64,000 nt of DNA from Leadbetterella byssophila DSM 17132 (GTDB lineage: Bacteria; Bacteroidota; Bacteroidia; Cytophagales; Spirosomataceae): positions 930,001 to 994,000 of the forward strand of contig NC_014655.1 of the NCBI RefSeq assembly GCF_000166395.1. Reading direction: 5' to 3'. How positions within the stretch are numbered: position 1 is the first letter of the stretch; each line of letters starts with the position of its first letter. The position numbers and the translations under genes were made by a program. The notes under the pieces are model-generated. The model was not told the origin of the DNA. It made no database searches and was given only the letters and a program-made list of their open reading frames with translations. Positions 33,655 through 42,989 of this stretch are shown here, in pieces.

Positions 33655-34240
33655 TGCATATGTACCTTCTGTAGTCCAATAAATGTAAACCGGTTGAAGC
33701 TATTATTTCTTTTTAGCTGACCAAAGACAGCTTCAGGCTCTATAGCTCTCTTACTTAGGTGTTTTAGTCCTTTTTGGCTAATAAAAAGCTCTTAAGCTTC
33801 ATGTTTTAGTTGGTTTAACCTATGGTTTAACTCAATTCTTCGGTTATACGCAGCCTGGTGACATTGTTCTCGCAAGGGACATCCATAGCAATTTCTTGCC
33901 TGATAATGGGTTATTTGGGACTCATATCCGTTACTTGGAATCCGTTTCCCTGAACCTATATTTTCCATCCGTTGGCCCATCGGACAAACATAAAAGTCTT
34001 CTCAGCTATTGTAAAACAGGTTTTGTACTAAAAATGGGTCTTTGTGAAAGGATTTCTTTTGCTCCTTATGAAAATAGTTATATTTTACATAACCCGTAAT
34101 AGATTTGTTTTTAAGCATTTCATAGTTCTCCTCGCCGCCATATCCCGCATCTGCTACTACTTCTTTACTTTGGGTTGGGTAAGCAGCTTCAAAACCTTCC
34201 AAATGCGGCTTTAAGGTAGTGGTGTCAGTGGCTTTCTGAT
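33655..34240 (-). pseudogene. IS1182-family transposase remnant
   Basis: Read on the minus strand in one frame: DQKATDTTTLKPHLEGF, VVADAGYGGEENYEML, YVKYNYFHKEQ, then TGA (34004-34002), YVCPMGQRMENIGSGKR, ARNCYGCPLREQCH, then TAA (33794-33792), then SQKGLKHLSKRAIEPEAVFG and QLKRNNSFNRFTFIGLQKV. These are the middle and C-terminal parts of IS1182-type DDE transposases, including the Asp of VVADAGYG and the Glu of EPEAVFG. The N-terminal half is missing and two in-frame stops are present, so it is dead. Its upstream edge is fused to an IS66 tnpA fragment. Confidence 0.88.
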
Positions 34241-34482
34241 CGCGGTACTTTCAGCCTCACCCCCGTAGGATAGATAATCTCTATTTGTTCCCCTTTCACA
34301 GCTGATCCGGAGGGCATAAAACCTCTGCTACCGGCTTCCTGTTCCTTGGACTTGAAGACCCAGTAACGCAAGGTCGAAACGTTGATCCCGTGCAATAGGC
34401 CAAATGCTTTTTGGGTCAATCCACTCGCTTTCCAATCCTCAACCAGCGAAAGCATCCTCTCTCTTTTTTCTTCTGTGCTCAT
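34225..34482 (-). pseudogene. IS66-family accessory gene tnpA, 3' end replaced
   Basis: 85 residues. The N-terminal helix-turn-helix part (LVEDWKASGLTQKAFGLLHG, STLRYWVFK) and IEIIYPTGVRLKVPR match TnpA proteins of IS66 elements, which assist the large transposase TnpC. The last residues SESH come from reading out of frame into the IS1182 fragment; a normal TnpA would have about ten more residues. tnpB and tnpC are absent. An inverted repeat ATCCGCC/GGCGGAT (34492-34498 and 34532-34538) lies just upstream. Confidence 0.82.
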
Positions 34483-35104: not shown

Positions 35105-35542
35105 TAGTAGGAGTGTTAATTTGTTTTTAATCAGAGTACTAATATAGTTTTTAAATGCTATAATTCTATATTCTACTACAATATTTTTTCTACTGACGTC
35201 TTTGATCCACCTGTACTATTTCTATCTTAACCTCCCCTTTCTAAAAACCTTCTAATTCTAAATGAAGTGAATCAATTGACCATTTCCTAATAATATATCA
35301 CCTGGAATCTAAAAGTTGCGAAATTCAATAGTCTAAAAGACGTATACAATTAGAGAAATTCTTCCTATAAAATTTAATGACTTGAATCTTTAATTTTTTT
35401 TCCCCCCACCAATTGCCATACTGTCATCATAGATTCTATATGCATAATATATAATCTCCTCACATTTACCTCGCGCCAAACTAGAACCCTACGTTAAATT
35501 CAATTACTTTCCAAATAAGTATTTTGCATAGTCATTTTTGTA
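35105..35542. other. intergenic region without visible gene
   Basis: About 440 bases, AT-rich, with no open frame of interest and no tRNA-like or repeat structure that I can see. The regulatory site of the arsR-like gene follows. Confidence 0.5.
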
Positions 35543-35569
35543 TCGTAATATTGCAATATACCAATACGA
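35543..35569 (+). promoter_or_regulatory. probable operator of the ArsR-family gene
   Basis: A perfect 12-base palindrome ATATTGCAATAT (35548-35559) is flanked by TCGTA (35543-35547) and TACGA (35565-35569), ending 8 bases before the ATG at 35577. The position fits autorepression. Confidence 0.6.
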
Positions 35570-35576
35570 AATCAGT

Positions 35577-35900
35577 ATGGGAGTAACAAAAACAGGGAAG
35601 TATACTGAAGAACAGAGCCAACTGTCAAACATTTTTAAAGTACTTGGACATCCAGCCCGTTTAGCCAACTTACAAGTCATTATTGATAGGCATTCCTGCA
35701 TATGTAATGACATGGTGGAAAAAATTGGCCTTGCCCAACCTACCATCTCCCAACATCTTTCGGAACTAAAATCTATAGGTCTCTTAAAAGGATCAATAAA
35801 GGGAAAATCACAATGTTACTGTATAGACGAAGAAGCCTGGAGTAACATTCAAACGCAATTCAATGCTTTCTTCGATCAGGATGTAAAAACACTTTGCTAA
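35577..35900 (+). CDS. ArsR-family metalloregulator
   Basis: 107 residues from 35577 (MGVTKTGKYTEEQ). The winged helix-turn-helix is clear (LGHPARLANLQVIIDRHSC, AQPTISQHLSELKSIGLL). SCICNDMV resembles the C-V-C-D metal-binding motif in the DNA-recognition region of arsenic- and cadmium-sensing ArsR proteins, so two cysteines are available for As(III). More cysteines occur near QCYCID and the C terminus. The start at 35577 keeps the palindromic operator outside the coding region. It heads a three-gene operon. Confidence 0.87.
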   Translation: MGVTKTGKYTEEQSQLSNIFKVLGHPARLANLQVIIDRHSCICNDMVEKIGLAQPTISQHLSELKSIGLLKGSIKGKSQCYCIDEEAWSNIQTQFNAFFDQDVKTLC

Positions 35901-35904
35901 TAAA

Positions 35905-36363
35905 ATGGATCTAACAAAAATTAAAGAAATTCTGCCCACATTAGAGAATGTGGAATTTCAACTAGAAGACGGAACTTGGGTGCCAGAACATTTCCACGTG
36001 ACAGAAGTGGGACAGATTACAAAAAATTTTATCGATTGCGGAGGCGTGATCAGAAGTGAAAAGGTGGTAAATTTCCAACTGTGGAATGCAGACGACTACG
36101 AACATCGATTAAAACCCGGCAAATTACTGAACATCATAAAGCTATCAGAGGAAAAGCTAGGTTTAGAAAACGCAGCAATTGAAGTCGAATACCAATCCAC
36201 AACCATTGGAAAGTACGACCTAGATTTTAACGGAAAGAACTTCATATTGAGGAATAAGAATACTGCATGTTTAGCTCAGGACGCTTGCCTAAACGTCAAG
36301 CCCAAAATCAAACTTTCTGAACTACAAAATTCTTGCTGTACACCAAATTCCGGTTGCTGCTAA
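35905..36363 (+). CDS. DUF6428 family protein
   Basis: 152 residues, cytoplasmic. LPTLENVEFQLEDGTWVPEHFHVTEVG, given here as WVPEHFHVTEVG, is the hallmark of DUF6428. This family sits downstream of arsR in many Bacteroidota ars operons; its function is unknown. The C terminus is cysteine-rich (NSCCTPNSGCC), which would suit metal or arsenite binding, though this is inference. It is 4 bases after arsR and 4 bases before the acetyltransferase gene. Confidence 0.83.
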   Translation: MDLTKIKEILPTLENVEFQLEDGTWVPEHFHVTEVGQITKNFIDCGGVIRSEKVVNFQLWNADDYEHRLKPGKLLNIIKLSEEKLGLENAAIEVEYQSTTIGKYDLDFNGKNFILRNKNTACLAQDACLNVKPKIKLSELQNSCCTPNSGCC

Positions 36364-36367
36364 TCAC

Positions 36368-36859
36368 ATGAGAATATCACACATCAATAGAGACAACTTC
36401 CCGGAAATTGTAGAGATCTACTTACAAGGTATCTCTACTCAGATAGCTACCTTCCAAAATGAAGCACCTTCGTGGGAAGAATGGGATAAAAGCCACCTAA
36501 GTTCTTGTAGATTAGTTGCCCTCTTAGAAGGTAAAATCTGCGGATGGGCAGCTTTAAGCCCTGTCTCTAGCAGATGTGTATACTCCGGTGTAGCAGAAGT
36601 AAGCATATATATTGGCCAGGAGCACAGAGGTAAAGGTATAGGAAAAGCACTTCTACATGAATTAATCCATCAAAGCGAAAAAGAAGGAATATGGACCTTA
36701 CAGTCCAGCATTTTTTCAGAGAATCTACCTAGCATCAAGCTGCATGAAAGTTGCGGTTTCAGAATGGTGGGCTATAGAGAAAAGATAGGATTAAAAAACG
36801 GAGTCTGGAAGGACAATGTACTAATGGAGAGGAGAAGCAATAAGATTGGAATCGAGTAA
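36368..36859 (+). CDS. GNAT acetyltransferase of the ArsN/phosphinothricin type
   Basis: 163 residues. The acetyl-CoA-binding loop is EHRGKGIGKALLHELI, and the pattern AEVSIYIGQEHRGKGIG with NLPSIKLHESCGFRMVGYRE matches the phosphinothricin N-acetyltransferase group, which includes ArsN proteins found in ars operons and known to act on arsenical or phosphinothricin antibiotics. Its position after arsR and DUF6428 supports an ArsN-like role. No Acr3, ArsB or ArsC gene follows. Confidence 0.82.
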   Translation: MRISHINRDNFPEIVEIYLQGISTQIATFQNEAPSWEEWDKSHLSSCRLVALLEGKICGWAALSPVSSRCVYSGVAEVSIYIGQEHRGKGIGKALLHELIHQSEKEGIWTLQSSIFSENLPSIKLHESCGFRMVGYREKIGLKNGVWKDNVLMERRSNKIGIE

Positions 36860-38051: not shown

Positions 38052-38573
38052 CTAATCCTTATTTTTTTCATTTAAATCCAGATCTTTATAGAGCTTCTTC
38101 AATTCATCAAACTTCTCCAATCTAATGAATTTACAAGCAGATTCTAGGATGAGCCTTTCGTACTTTGGCCTTAATTTAGGGGCTACAAATAGCATATACT
38201 TCAATTGATCTAAACTAGGTCTTCTTTTAGCTCCCTCTAAATCTCCCCATCTCTGTTTCGAGAAACTTCTTTTTATATAGCGAAATACCGCACCTCAGAT
38301 CTTAAAATCTAACCAGATAATAAGCGTAGCTTTTTCAAATCTGCTGGGCATCAAAAAACTATAATTCCCCTCCATTACCCAGCGATCGTTTTCGAGAAGA
38401 AATAGTTCATGATCTCTTTGAAAATCAGCATCTTCCCTCCTCTTCCATTGAGTGCCAGGAAAATGCGCCATTTGGTCCAGAAAACAGACTTTTAAATCAA
38501 ACTTTTCTCCCAAAGCTTGGGCTAATGTGGATTTACCTGAAGAACTTGGGCCTATGATGCAGATTCTTTCCAT
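38052..38573 (-). pseudogene. P-loop nucleotide kinase-like protein, interrupted by TGA
   Basis: The frame from the ATG at 38573 begins with a Walker A motif (CIIGPSSSGKSTLAQALG) and continues WVMEGNYS and ATLIIWLDFKI, typical of small adenylate-kinase-like or topology-modulation proteins. A TGA at 38297-38295 interrupts it, and the same frame goes on with GAVFRYIKRSFSKQRWGDLE and ends at TAG 38054-38052, giving 174 codons, the usual family length. Arg is frequent at the lost position, so CGA to TGA is a likely origin. It overlaps the membrane-protein gene upstream by 22 bases. Confidence 0.83.
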
Positions 38574-39025
38574 CTCTTCAAAATATCTTCCATTTCCTCC
38601 ATTTTCTGGGTACCAATCAGCAATTTACCTCCATCTTTAAATTTCAACTGAAGCCCCATTTTTCCTCTTACATTATAGGCCTTACCTGAAAATGAATAGC
38701 GGATACCGTATCCACCGTATTCCAAAATGGGCTTGTATTCCCGCACAAAAATCTCTTGAATACTAGCTTTAGGATAAAACCTCCTATGCAGGTGAAAAGG
38801 GAAAAATTGAACATAAATGCCCTCATCCGTGATTTCAGTATCTAATCTCATTGAAAATAGGAATACAATAACCACCAGGAATATACCCAATGTAACGAAA
38901 AGGCCGCTATAGATCTGGGATGTCCAACAGGCATATAGCCCGTACAAAAGAGGAATTAGCGACAAAGAAAAAAGCAGGTAATGCCACCATTGATTGAATC
39001 TTTGAGTCTCTTTAAATTGCATCAT
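38552..39025 (-). CDS. two-helix membrane protein, DUF6141-like
   Basis: 157 residues. Two transmembrane helices lie at about residues 15-32 and 41-57 (LLFSLSLIPLLYGLYA, FVTLGIFLVVIVFLF), followed by a ~100-residue cytoplasmic beta-rich domain with PH-like character (EITDEGIYVQFFPFH, IQEIFVREYKPI). It resembles DUF6141; function unknown. Its first 14 bases overlap the end of the LCIB-like gene, so it belongs to the antiporter-bestrophin operon. Confidence 0.78.
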   Translation of the reverse strand: MMQFKETQRFNQWWHYLLFSLSLIPLLYGLYACWTSQIYSGLFVTLGIFLVVIVFLFSMRLDTEITDEGIYVQFFPFHLHRRFYPKASIQEIFVREYKPILEYGGYGIRYSFSGKAYNVRGKMGLQLKFKDGGKLLIGTQKMEEMEDILKRWKESAS

Positions 39026-39749
39026 ATTCAGCGAGCAAACTTCTCCTCTCCCCGCTCTCTATATCTATACAGTCAAACTTCTTGTATTGGCAATAAGACC
39101 CCATTTCTTTATCACCATTTATAAAGATCCCGCCCACAAGCAAAAGATATTTACAGGGATAATGCGTGGCTTTTACCAAAACCTCAATTCTGTCATCAAT
39201 AGCCTCGTACATTACTTCAGTAGCCTCAAACAGCGGATGATCAGCCCTCAAAATTCTCTGCTTCTGACTGAGAAAAATCTGCTCAATGGTATTCATTTGA
39301 AAATCCAAAGAGCTGATGTTACCCACAATGATCTCATTTCTCTTCAATTTTTCCAATGCGCCTTTAGCAGCCCCGCAACACGCGGATGGCGCACCTTGCC
39401 CTATTCGGGATATTTCCCCTAATGCCCCCTGCTTCGTAACACCAATATGCGGGGCATAAAAGATGATCACCGCTCCATCTTCCGGGACATGATGCGCAAA
39501 AGCATTCATGCCTGTAATTCCAGCAAAGGGATATCCATCTAATCCTCCCAAATGAAAAGGCCCTAGCATCTCCAATGCTCTTGGAGGATATTGAATGGCA
39601 TTCACGTCATCGCAACATAAACTGTCAGCATGCATCAACTGATGGGGCTTTAATCCCAAAACTCTGTCAATGGTATCAAGAAGCCTATTCACGGTATCCA
39701 CCGAAGTTCTTGCTCTGGGATACCATTTTCTCACCATATCTAAACTCAT
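39012..39749 (-). CDS. LCIB/LCIC-like (theta-type) carbonic anhydrase homologue
   Basis: 245 residues, no signal peptide. Motif order matches the algal low-CO2-inducible proteins LCIB/LCIC: DSLCCDDVNA, then PFHLGGLDGYPFAGITGMNA, AFAHHVP, YAPHIGVTKQGALGEISRI and SACCGAAKGA. By alignment in my head the zinc ligands would be Cys45, His86 and Cys125, with Asp47 and Arg115 as the Asp-Arg dyad of beta-type anhydrases. The C-terminal part (LLVGGIFINGD, FDCIDI) also fits. Known relatives interconvert CO2 and bicarbonate; some are inactive. Its start overlaps the bestrophin stop by 4 bases. Confidence 0.82.
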   Translation of the reverse strand: MSLDMVRKWYPRARTSVDTVNRLLDTIDRVLGLKPHQLMHADSLCCDDVNAIQYPPRALEMLGPFHLGGLDGYPFAGITGMNAFAHHVPEDGAVIIFYAPHIGVTKQGALGEISRIGQGAPSACCGAAKGALEKLKRNEIIVGNISSLDFQMNTIEQIFLSQKQRILRADHPLFEATEVMYEAIDDRIEVLVKATHYPCKYLLLVGGIFINGDKEMGSYCQYKKFDCIDIESGERRSLLAEYDAI

Positions 39750-40720
39750 AGTACTATGTTATTTTGAGGTACAATAACAGGAGGAATATCTACTTCTCCC
39801 AACATTTCTCGCAAGTCTATTTCTATATTTCTACTGATCTGTGCCATGGGTATGTCATTTGCTCCTCCCTCAAATGGATTTTCAGTACTTTCTCCAATCT
39901 GCTCTAACACTAAAAAAATCCATCCTACCACTAGACTTAGAGGGACCACTAACCAAATTGAATCTTCCCCCAATTTCCTCAATTCACCTAAAAAGCCAAG
40001 GGGCAACAAGGCACATAACAGATAAGTAAAATACAGGTTAATGCTGGCAAATTGTCGGGGGTAAGGAAAGTTCTTGATTCTTTCGCACTTTCCCTGTAAT
40101 TCAAATAGGTCCTTCAAACGCTCTTGTAGATGCAAAAATGCATATTCAGATAAATGACCATGATCACGTAACTCCTTTAAATGCGCGGATTGCAAGGCCA
40201 AAATTTGCGAAGGCTTATTGTGCACATGCCTCAAAACTTCCATTTCTTCATGGCTTAGGTATTGTTGCAATTCATCCCACATATTCCCCTCCCACTCCGG
40301 AACGGTATACAATTTCAGATATTCAAGATTATAGGCCTTTGTCTTAACATTTTCCCAACTTTTACTTTCTCTCAATTGAAATCTCAAAGCAGTTAACCAA
40401 GCCAAATGCCTGTAGATCATCCCCTTACTCCCTATACCATCTTTGACCAAAACCCCAAAACTCCTACTGCTGTTGATAATACCTCCCCAAATCTGCCTTG
40501 CCTCCCACATCCTATTGTAGGTTTGTGTGTTTCTAAATCCCGCGATAAAAGCTGCAGCAGTCCCAACTATCGCTACAGGAGCCCAAGGGATAGCTAACCA
40601 CTCCCAATCAAAAAATTTATAAAGTCTCACCGGAATAATACTTATGACTAGCATGATGTAGATTTTGGAACGAGTCCAGGGAATAAATTCCTTCAGTTTA
40701 TAGTGCGATCCAGTGTTCAT
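39746..40720 (-). CDS. bestrophin-family anion channel (UPF0187)
   Basis: 324 residues. The N terminus (IPWTRSKIYIMLVI) and the signature AGFRNTQTYNRMWEARQIWG define the bacterial bestrophin family. Four membrane segments are expected, near residues 19-35, 44-62, 229-250 and 258-275. Known members form pentameric channels passing chloride, bicarbonate or, in Klebsiella, cations. The C terminus (NPFEGGANDIPMAQISRNIE) carries the conserved GGxxDxP segment. It begins 1 base after the antiporter stop and overlaps the LCIB-like gene by 4. Confidence 0.92.
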   Translation of the reverse strand: MNTGSHYKLKEFIPWTRSKIYIMLVISIIPVRLYKFFDWEWLAIPWAPVAIVGTAAAFIAGFRNTQTYNRMWEARQIWGGIINSSRSFGVLVKDGIGSKGMIYRHLAWLTALRFQLRESKSWENVKTKAYNLEYLKLYTVPEWEGNMWDELQQYLSHEEMEVLRHVHNKPSQILALQSAHLKELRDHGHLSEYAFLHLQERLKDLFELQGKCERIKNFPYPRQFASINLYFTYLLCALLPLGFLGELRKLGEDSIWLVVPLSLVVGWIFLVLEQIGESTENPFEGGANDIPMAQISRNIEIDLREMLGEVDIPPVIVPQNNIVL

Positions 40721-40721
40721 A

Positions 40722-42284
40722 TTAATGTTCAGCTCCTGTGATACTCATTTCGTCTAAATCCAATTGTAACTCTGCCCTCCTGATCTCTTCATCTGAAAAG
40801 GCGTTTTCACGTCTCAACTTAAACAACTCCTTTCTTTGCAAAGAATAGATTTTAAGTAGAACTGCATGGAATTCTTCCCTTTTCTTCACACTCAAAGGCT
40901 GTGGCTGCTCCTCCCTTTCTAACTTTGCCTTAAATATATTTAGCCAATCATTGCCCTCAATTCCCTTTAATTCTGCTAAAGCAATCTGATTCAAGTGCTT
41001 TTGAATTCCAGCTCTTTGAATCTCAGCAGGTACCACAGCATCTATTTCCTCCAAATGAATAATCCTCAGAATGAAAGGTAAAGTCAAGCCCTGAAAAACC
41101 AATGTCACTAATATCACCCCAAAAGTGATGAACAAAATCAGATTTCTCTGCGGAAATGCAACCCCGTCTGTCAAATAAAGTGGAATGGACAAAGCTGTAG
41201 CTAATGATACCACACCTCTCATCCCTGCCCAACTTATCACCAAAGGCCCCTTCCAACCCGGAGAGGGCTCTTTTCTCACCTTTCTACTGATCCACCTAGG
41301 CAGATGGGCAGCCGGATAAACCCAAAGGAAACGTAGCAGAATCACCAATACACTGACCCATAGACTATACTTGATAGCTTGAATTACAGAATATTCCCCT
41401 AAACCTTGTATTATTTCTGGTAACTCAAGACCAATCAAAATAAAAACCAAAGCATTCATTACAAATATCATTGTAGTCCACACCCCTAACATATTCAGAC
41501 GTGTACTACCGTTTTGAAACACTTCGTGTGAACGATAAGACATATATAGACCCCCACTTACCACAGCCATAACACCGGAAAAATGAAACTGCTCTGCCAA
41601 CAAAAACAATAAATAAGGAGTCATCACTGTTAAAGCCGCATCTATGGCCACATTCGTAGGTAAATATCTATGAATCAGATACATAAAATTCGCCCCCACT
41701 AATCCCACAACCACACCCATACCGGCTACCAAAAAGAACTGAACCACAGCTTCTTGTAAAGAAAATGACCCTGAAATAGCCGCTAGTAATGCAAAACGAA
41801 ATACAATCAAGGAAGAGGCATCATTCACTAAACTCTCCCCTTCCAATATGGTCATCAAGCGCTTAGGAACACTCATTCCTTTCAAAACAGATGCTGCTGC
41901 AACTGCATCAGGAGGAGAAACAATTCCACCTAAGAGAAAACCCAAAGCGAGAGTAAATCCCGGGATCAGAGCCACACTGGCATATGCCACAATACTAGAT
42001 GTGAAGAAAACTAAACCAAATGCCAAAAGAATAATAGGGCGCTTCCATTTCCAAAAATCATTCCAGGAAGTATACCACGCAGCCTCATATAACAAAGGAG
42101 GTAGAAAGATGAGAAATATAAGGTCAGGATCTAAATGCAAGGTGGGAACTCCCGGTATAAAACAAATTCCCAAACCGGCCAAAACCAAGAATATGGGATA
42201 GGCTATCTTTAATTTCCTAGCTAAGAGTACTAAGAGAAAAACAGCAAATAAAAGTGCTAAAATGTAAAGTAATGTGTGGTGCAT
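40722..42284 (-). CDS. CPA1-family Na+/H+ antiporter
   Basis: 520 residues with about 12 transmembrane segments in the first 410 and a cytoplasmic tail of about 110 residues rich in charged helices. The CPA1 marks are FLPPLLYEAAW, VSPPDAVAAASVLKGM, and EGESLVNDASSLIVFR, where Asn154-Asp155 form the ion-binding ND pair, plus SWAGMRGVVSLATALSIPL. It exchanges Na+ (or K+) for H+ across the inner membrane. It is the first gene of the operon with bestrophin and the LCIB-like gene. Confidence 0.93.
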   Translation of the reverse strand: MHHTLLYILALLFAVFLLVLLARKLKIAYPIFLVLAGLGICFIPGVPTLHLDPDLIFLIFLPPLLYEAAWYTSWNDFWKWKRPIILLAFGLVFFTSSIVAYASVALIPGFTLALGFLLGGIVSPPDAVAAASVLKGMSVPKRLMTILEGESLVNDASSLIVFRFALLAAISGSFSLQEAVVQFFLVAGMGVVVGLVGANFMYLIHRYLPTNVAIDAALTVMTPYLLFLLAEQFHFSGVMAVVSGGLYMSYRSHEVFQNGSTRLNMLGVWTTMIFVMNALVFILIGLELPEIIQGLGEYSVIQAIKYSLWVSVLVILLRFLWVYPAAHLPRWISRKVRKEPSPGWKGPLVISWAGMRGVVSLATALSIPLYLTDGVAFPQRNLILFITFGVILVTLVFQGLTLPFILRIIHLEEIDAVVPAEIQRAGIQKHLNQIALAELKGIEGNDWLNIFKAKLEREEQPQPLSVKKREEFHAVLLKIYSLQRKELFKLRRENAFSDEEIRRAELQLDLDEMSITGAEH

Positions 42285-42374
42285 AGATTAGGGATATTTC
42301 TATGCACCAAAAATAAATATAGGAAATTGGAAACCAAACAATTAGAAATATTTGTTTTATATAAAGGAGGAAAA

Positions 42375-42989
42375 TTATTCTACTTTCTCCTTGGTCAAGT
42401 AGGAAAGATTTTTGGTAATCTTCTCTAGATCCCAATCCCACCATTTCATCTCTAATAGCTCCTTAATTTTTTCATCGGAAAACCTTTTTCTTATGATTTG
42501 CGCAGGGTTACCCCCTACTATTGCATATGGTGGCACATCCTTAGTAACGGTTGAATTTGTAGATATAATGGCTCCGTTTCCTACCTTAACACCAGGCATT
42601 ATCGTAACGTTGTGACCTATCCAAACGTCGTTCTCAATAATAGTATCCCCTTTGTATGGAAGCTCCTTAGCTTCCGGTGCAGATTCCGCCCAATCTCCAC
42701 CAAATATATAGAAAGGATATGCCGTAATCCCGTCCATTTTATGGTTAGCTCCATTCATAATGAAGGTTACATCTGAAGCTATCATACAAAATTTACCTAT
42801 CACTAGCTTATCGCCAATGAAATCAAAATGGTATTTTACATTCTTCTCAAAATTCTGAACATCATCAAAATCATCATAATAAGTATAGTCTCCCACTATT
42901 ATATTGGGATTCTTGATAATGTTTTTCAAAAAACAAAGTCGCTTATAGTGCGGCAATGGAAATACTTGGTTCTTATCTGGAATTTGCAT
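42375..42989 (-). CDS. Vat-type xenobiotic (streptogramin A) acetyltransferase
   Basis: 204 residues, left-handed beta-helix. The match to Vat enzymes is close: VGDYTYYDD, NGANHKMDG with catalytic His83, YPFYIFGGDW, PYKGDTIIENDVWIGHNVTI and GGNPAQIIRKRFSDEKI, then LEMKWWDWDLEKI. Vat proteins inactivate streptogramin A by O-acetylation; chromosomal relatives also include CatB-like enzymes with other or unknown substrates. It overlaps the DUF4199 gene by 17 bases. I see no nearby mobile-element signs. Confidence 0.87.
   Translation of the reverse strand: MQIPDKNQVFPLPHYKRLCFLKNIIKNPNIIVGDYTYYDDFDDVQNFEKNVKYHFDFIGDKLVIGKFCMIASDVTFIMNGANHKMDGITAYPFYIFGGDWAESAPEAKELPYKGDTIIENDVWIGHNVTIMPGVKVGNGAIISTNSTVTKDVPPYAIVGGNPAQIIRKRFSDEKIKELLEMKWWDWDLEKITKNLSYLTKEKVE

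Follow-up and report, generated by a model that had tools for sequence, protein, structure and literature searches.

A recurrent bestrophin–LCIB gene pair in Leadbetterella byssophila and its relatives: a candidate CO2-to-bicarbonate export unit with exchangeable cation partners

Introduction

In Chlamydomonas, the bestrophins BST1-3 have been proposed to let bicarbonate made by the stromal LCIB/C proteins into the thylakoid lumen, and data for an interaction of LCIB/C with BST1 and BST3 are cited (PMC6708349). Among bestrophins, KpBest, with the neck residues IIF, is a Na+ channel whose I66F variant shifts its preference to Cl-, and the eukaryotic channels carry IFF (PMC8496536). In the Kef systems, K+ leaves as H+ enters, which makes the cytosol more acidic and gives protection from electrophiles (PMC10224563). 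Here, we describe a minus-strand locus (positions 42284-38052) in a 64,000-nucleotide stretch of the Leadbetterella byssophila DSM 17132 genome (NC_014655.1, positions 930,001 to 994,000), called the window below, where a bestrophin gene and an LCIB-family gene follow a gene for a CPA1-type antiporter. A preliminary description of the locus had drawn the parallel with the algal pair, aptly in view of the interaction data cited for the latter.

To our knowledge, little is understood of the physiological roles of bacterial bestrophins, and work on LCIB has mostly concerned algal photosynthesis. The constituent protein families are already known, and the association belongs to a familiar kind, the transporter–carbonic anhydrase partnership. 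No published bacterial bestrophin–carbonic anhydrase operon was found in the literature searched, most subscription journals and bioRxiv preprints lying outside its coverage; this is weak evidence of novelty.

Results

The locus contains three close-packed genes:

40722..42284, minus strand: CPA1-type Na+(K+)/H+ antiporter, 520 aa, PF00999 and TIGR00831 above cut-off, EGESLVND motif
39746..40720, minus strand: Bestrophin_2 family channel (PF25539), 324 aa, neck Thr54/Phe58/Phe62, AlphaFold model resembling KpBest
39012..39749, minus strand: putative LCIB-family (beta-carbonic anhydrase-like) carbonic anhydrase, 245 aa (PF18599), model resembling PtLCIB4, active-site residues conserved

The antiporter and the bestrophin are separated by a 1-base gap, and the bestrophin overlaps LCIB by 4 bases (ATGA), which is the order and spacing of the preliminary description. 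Its family assignments were borne out as well: the antiporter matched PF00999 (3.9e-56) and the TIGR00831 equivalog (318.9 bits, cut-off 279.6), the bestrophin matched PF25539 Bestrophin_2 (1.7e-45, 156.2 bits, cut-off 27) and LCIB matched PF18599 LCIB_C_CA (3.9e-65, 219.7 bits, cut-off 25). The Asn-Asp motif within EGESLVND is a mark of CPA1 antiporters. Of the three genes NCBIfam names the antiporter alone; LCIB had no match there, and the bestrophin none near the cut-off.

The pairing of bestrophin with LCIB recurs across genomes far beyond chance, the chance figure being an estimate and not a simulation. When all loci are taken together, a same-strand bestrophin lay within three genes of LCIB for 78 of the 142 distinct frames (141 genes, as two frames are the halves of one interrupted gene at locus L172; L and G numbers are our own for loci and genomes). 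The two genes were immediately adjacent in 73 cases, with the bestrophin upstream in 71 of these, a gap of at most 50 bases in 63 and a median gap of 12 bases. Frames were called by our own script, which missed the LCIB of L091 and L164 (one contig). Pairing was found in 73/94 frames with an LCIB profile score of at least 400, in 5/15 between 290 and 400 and in 0/33 below 290. It is conserved well beyond this genome, and we rejected a chance or purely local neighbourhood.

The same pairing was counted in three genome sets. In the phylum census, LCIB was present in 35 of 395 genomes, all inspected; three were paired (the window, G277 and G292), these being three of the six inside the class. In the family census, 43/222 genomes had LCIB over the cut-off, with 47 genes, 26 of which lay directly behind a same-strand bestrophin (one further gene of the 47, in G562, was not scored and was entered as unpaired). 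A species-genome collection gave 287 LCIB relatives, and 61 of the 76 distinct frames among the best 80 were paired; this sample is biased towards relatives of the window, and the family and phylum censuses are fairer. Only 2 of the 10 genomes of the window's genus, its own included, carry LCIB, so the distribution is patchy. A pattern-led search of viral contigs and a search of plasmids found no LCIB relatives, and a phage or plasmid home for the gene was rejected.

Two side observations concern these neighbourhoods. At L163 the bestrophin–LCIB pair is followed by genes for a HopJ-domain protein and a zinc-type alcohol dehydrogenase (Pfam), and L100, L101, L166 and L167 look alike by gene lengths only. 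In the 29 genomes outside the class that have LCIB and no bestrophin beside it (L036-L050, L183-L196), some neighbours resemble, by eye, cysteinyl-tRNA synthetase or a DEAD-box helicase.

The bestrophin side was surveyed in 395 phylum and 395 class genomes (overlapping sets) for members of the clade to which the window's channel belongs; 90 loci were taken, mostly by score, of which 87 were distinct. A same-strand carbonic anhydrase gene lay downstream of the bestrophin in 16/87, LCIB in five and a classical beta-carbonic anhydrase in 11, with one further beta-carbonic anhydrase convergent with a clade bestrophin. LCIB linkage is undercounted here, the linked loci of G277 and G292 having been left out of the 87. 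With about three carbonic anhydrase genes, as in the window's genome, among roughly 4,000 (an estimate), well under one case would be expected by chance. Fifteen of the 16 linked bestrophins were among the 42 best-scoring. Two of the adjacent beta-carbonic anhydrases were confirmed by Pfam (PF00484); CxDSR and HxxC are kept in the 11 called frames, the convergent one included, and at the twelfth locus, L309, both stand in one open frame. On a quick bestrophin tree, the starred branches force at least seven changes for LCIB linkage and at least four for beta-carbonic anhydrase linkage. No other result speaks as strongly for a channel that handles the product of a carbonic anhydrase as this repeated occupation of one position by two enzyme families, and we hold a bestrophin–carbonic anhydrase partnership to be likely.

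We examined whether the window's LCIB has the features of a carbonic anhydrase. Its AlphaFold model (pLDDT, the predicted local distance difference test, 93.2) matched best PtLCIB4, 5b5y (E 5.3e-18, template modelling score (TM) 0.81/0.84). After the LCIB group, the model matched ordinary beta-carbonic anhydrases weakly. The significant relatives of the protein among solved structures were LCIB-type proteins (6kfs, 9w05, 9vzj, PtLCIB4, LCIB and LCIC), and the matches below them look like chance. Beta-carbonic anhydrases use Cys/His/Cys zinc ligands and an Asp-Arg pair. All 78 paired LCIB frames, that of the window among them, keep the corresponding Cys45, Asp47, His87, Arg115 and Cys125; of the 64 unpaired frames, 61 or 62 do. 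The zinc residues had first been given as Cys45, His86 and Cys125; the two cysteines are right, and the invariant histidine is His87, position 86 varying among the paired frames (His in 45, Ser in 33). Position 46 is Cys in the window's LCIB, Cys or Ser in the other paired frames and Arg in 0/142; from the alignment and a presumed numbering offset, it would be the residue altered in the PtLCIB4 'S47R' entry. Fold and residues together suggest that LCIB is a CO2-hydrating carbonic anhydrase.

The AlphaFold model of the bestrophin (pLDDT 90.7) exhibited KpBest (4wd7) as its best fold match, and KpBest was also matched by profile. The KpBest neck I62/I66/F70 aligns with Thr54/Phe58/Phe62 of the window's protein, given the chain offset that we assumed. 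The middle neck residue is Phe in 77/77 LCIB-linked bestrophins (72 TFF, 5 IFF); in 41 other sampled PF25539 matches it is Ile, Leu or Met in 35 and Phe in six, and these six score high with the linked-bestrophin profile. Judged by these residues, the neck of the window's clade, xFF, is of the anion type and differs from that of KpBest, a cation channel, and members of the clade may pass HCO3-. A middle Phe is characteristic of the anion-selective bestrophins and does not extend to the family as a whole. No carbonic anhydrase match lay in the 13 kb examined at the host genome's second bestrophin, which is non-xFF and, outside the xFF clade, the one bestrophin whose neighbourhood the survey covered.

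The preliminary description had made the antiporter part of the module, but a fixed place for it was not supported: CPA1 in the window is an exchangeable cation partner. The six upstream same-strand genes include one for a K+-channel protein in 35 of the 78 paired loci and one for CPA1 in 12; in 31 loci they include neither. In the close-packed runs (gaps of at most 150 bases) of the 71 bestrophin-first loci, the K+ channel occurs in 33, CPA1 in eight and DoxX-like and SDR genes in 21 and 17; SnoaL-like, AraC-type and aldehyde dehydrogenase genes occur in 15, 11 and eight. The K+-channel protein was identified by PF07885 in one member checked, and the filter [ST]IG[FY]GD is present in 43/43 frames (some genomes counted twice). 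On the starred branches of the LCIB tree, at least three changes are forced for CPA1 and at least nine for the K+ channel, and all four partner labels need 32 changes where the least possible is three; the bootstrap of this tree is not settled and long branches are flagged.

Two further partner types were seen. In G190 (L279; LCIB lies elsewhere in this genome), a TMEM175 gene (PF06736) precedes an xFF bestrophin and shares one base with its start. In one genus (g178, L212-L216), LCIB is followed by a flavodoxin-fold gene and by the gene of an exchanger that carries a TrkA-N domain, both labelled KefF/KefC-like from the domain content of one locus and from BLAST for the remaining four; the bestrophin lies directly before LCIB in L213, five or six frames upstream in L214, L215 and L216, and is absent among the six frames upstream in L212. 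As separate observations, a second bestrophin with a SIF neck lies downstream at L279, and the genes just upstream at L216 encode a LytTR regulator, a histidine kinase and a GAF protein.

The remaining features of the locus are:

38552..39025, minus strand: 157-aa membrane protein, no Pfam match over cut-off
38052..38573, minus strand: P-loop kinase-like gene with an in-frame TGA, from open reading frames and NCBIfam
42308..42338, minus strand: possible Bacteroidota-type promoter TTTG-N19-TANNTTTG, 23 bases 5' of the CPA1 start codon

The frame of the membrane protein overlaps the end of LCIB by 14 bases, and both downstream genes lie where the preliminary description placed them. The kinase-like frame meets a TGA after 92 aa, beyond which it stays open to 38052; its best NCBIfam model (171 positions) scored 69.8 bits against a cut-off of 224 with about half of the model covered, and we therefore regard the gene as interrupted. 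The other loci compared by BLAST (1e-4) yielded no relative of either protein, so both are probably outside the conserved unit, and we rejected them as members of it.

The promoter pattern, which follows the Bacteroidota consensus, has nine matches in the window against 3.7 expected, nine being reached by 2/100 shuffles; because this enrichment is just moderate, the site upstream of CPA1 is a hint of a promoter. Scans gave eight sigma-70-type promoter-like sites against 14.8 in shuffles and five terminator-like sites against 4.9, and these sites were set aside. Elsewhere in the window, a hexapeptide acetyltransferase gene lies just upstream of the antiporter (42375-42989, minus strand; NF000311, Vat streptogramin A acetyltransferase family, 310 bits, above cut-off). 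Genes for an ArsR-type regulator, a DUF6428 protein and a GNAT acetyltransferase stand in a row at 35538-36859 (plus strand), an arsenic-type cluster by eye. An 85-aa frame at 34225-34482 (minus strand) looks by eye like a transposase accessory protein, with no Pfam match at 0.001.

Discussion

The preliminary description had called the locus a candidate bicarbonate/CO2 module, and a bestrophin–LCIB unit that handles CO2 and HCO3- is indeed probable. We propose, with middling confidence, that it exports bicarbonate made from CO2 and thereby loads the cytoplasm with acid. Cytoplasmic LCIB would hydrate CO2 to HCO3- and H+; the bestrophin, as an anion channel permeable to HCO3-, would let it out down the membrane potential; and the H+ retained inside would acidify the cytoplasm. 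A cation partner would complete the unit, CPA1 in the window's genome and a K+-channel protein, TMEM175 or Kef-like genes in others. These partners would move Na+ or K+ out, antiporters with H+ in (CPA1 exchangers can trade Na+ for H+) and channels as a counter-charge for HCO3-, with cation loss and proton gain as the shared net result. The likely use would be pH homeostasis when the cell is stressed by alkali, cations or electrophiles.

HCO3- would exit because a passive anion channel presumably sits in an inside-negative plasma membrane; by arithmetic, the equilibrium ratio against its entry is 343-fold at an assumed 150 mV. The proposed algal path starts on the negative side of an energised membrane and ends on the positive one, a geometry that in the bacterium would mean export. 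More tentatively, the pair may represent a Bacteroidota-wide bestrophin–carbonic anhydrase unit of interchangeable parts (LCIB or beta-carbonic anhydrase; K+-channel protein, TMEM175, CPA1 or Kef) that serves as a CO2-driven acid loader against alkali or electrophiles.

Several observations weigh against these proposals. LCIB stands without a same-strand bestrophin within three genes in 64/142 frames, 0/29 LCIB genes outside the class are paired, and a universal LCIB–bestrophin link was rejected on that count. Conversely, 71/87 clade bestrophin loci have no adjacent same-strand carbonic anhydrase. The xFF neck is also found in 67/67 unlinked clade members of the bestrophin tree; it thus marks the clade and not the linkage, and was rejected as a sign of the latter. 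CPA1 adjoins a clade bestrophin without a carbonic anhydrase in L284, L298, L265, L266 and L267 and is convergent with one in L269, the Kef-like link is limited to one genus and possibly to one event, and TMEM175 to one locus. Position 46 is Cys in half of the paired LCIBs, that of the window among them, and Ser in the rest. The carbonic anhydrase activity of algal LCIB/LCIC is described as not confirmed (PMC10096703), and LCIB homologues without activity have been reported (PMC5876011). Finally, the outward direction is an argument from the membrane potential.

The least unlikely alternative is a bicarbonate supply, in which the unit imports inorganic carbon or traps CO2 as HCO3- for carboxylases while the antiporter removes H+, as a RuBisCO-free concentrating mechanism. 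Non-autotrophs do need HCO3- for carboxylases, and the joint presence of a carbonic anhydrase and an anion channel as well as the algal parallel (PMC6708349) speak for it. However, a passive channel in an inside-negative membrane would, by the same arithmetic, leak HCO3- outward. The host genome (one contig, 4.06 Mb, 99.84% complete) gave 0 matches to the RuBisCO family PF00016 at E 0.001, in agreement with the apparent heterotroph of the preliminary description, and holds two beta-carbonic anhydrase genes besides the one LCIB. Three bases before one of them ends a gene of the SulP family, which we take to serve HCO3- uptake. With no RuBisCO match and a separate SulP–beta-carbonic anhydrase pair, inorganic-carbon supply seems already covered, and a bicarbonate-concentrating role for the unit is unlikely. 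The earlier idea, in which protons from CO2 hydration are balanced by the antiporter, may hold but is not favoured, because neither the K+-channel nor the Kef-like substitutes would take protons out.

It is also rather unlikely that the bestrophin conducts chloride or another anion and that the carbonic anhydrase is adjacent only through a shared general stress regulon. Bestrophins are typically chloride channels (PMC6708349), and the recurrent SDR, DoxX-like, SnoaL-like, AraC-type and aldehyde dehydrogenase genes would suit such a regulon; yet these neighbours vary, whereas two carbonic anhydrase families are repeatedly found downstream, on the same strand and in the same place. An improbable reading is that K+ (or Na+) and HCO3- leave together to lower turgor after an osmotic downshift, with LCIB merely refilling HCO3-. 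A cation path and an anion path do lie side by side, and a K+-channel protein shares the close-packed run in 33/71 paired loci, but electroneutral antiporters are ill-suited to a fast osmotic valve, and the recurring neighbour families, read by eye and checked by profile only in part, showed no recognisable mechanosensitive gene. That LCIB is instead a hydrolase of the beta-carbonic anhydrase fold, e.g. for carbonyl sulfide (COS) or carbon disulfide (CS2), or a non-catalytic channel regulator is highly improbable, since the very weak fold matches to such hydrolases (3teo, E 0.15; 3vqj, E 2.1) and the reported inactive homologues (PMC5876011) are set against kept catalytic residues, PtLCIB4 as the best fold match and a plain beta-carbonic anhydrase in the same position in 11 loci.

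The substitutable and repeated carbonic anhydrase linkage points to HCO3- as a candidate substrate for a clade of bacterial bestrophins. LCIB gains a RuBisCO-free setting, and ordinary bacteria offer a way to test its activity along with its bestrophin coupling. If export is true, cytoplasmic pH would be set with metabolic CO2; if the general acid-loader unit is true, respiratory CO2 would be split into exported HCO3- and a retained proton.

Compared with known systems, the window's LCIB resembles PtLCIB4 (5b5y) in fold (TM 0.81/0.84) and, where the two align, in the active-site residues, at 26% identity; PtLCIB4 comes from a diatom. The bestrophin shares family and fold with KpBest (4wd7) at 23-24% identity and differs in the neck, TFF instead of the IIF of the Na+ channel. 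In the same genome, the SulP–beta-carbonic anhydrase pair likewise has a transporter gene directly followed by a carbonic anhydrase gene, SulP being another transporter family and the bestrophin a passive channel. KefC/KefF leads to an outcome like that proposed here, with cation out and cytoplasm acidified, and Kef-like genes lie near LCIB in five loci; unlike bestrophin–LCIB, Kef is itself a K+/H+ antiporter, and by word count the text of the Kef review (PMC10224563) names neither carbonic anhydrase nor bicarbonate nor anion.

The closest parallel is Chlamydomonas BST1-3 with LCIB/LCIC, where a bestrophin and an LCIB-family protein are likewise combined and the proposed passage of HCO3- from the negative to the positive side would be the same as here. 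The algal system works at the thylakoid, with RuBisCO and photosynthetic recapture, whereas the bacterial one would presumably work at the plasma membrane, with no RuBisCO match in the genome and a cation transporter encoded alongside. If the general acid-loader unit exists, the algal BST–LCIB system would be a photosynthetic use of a wider bestrophin–LCIB pairing and not an algal speciality.

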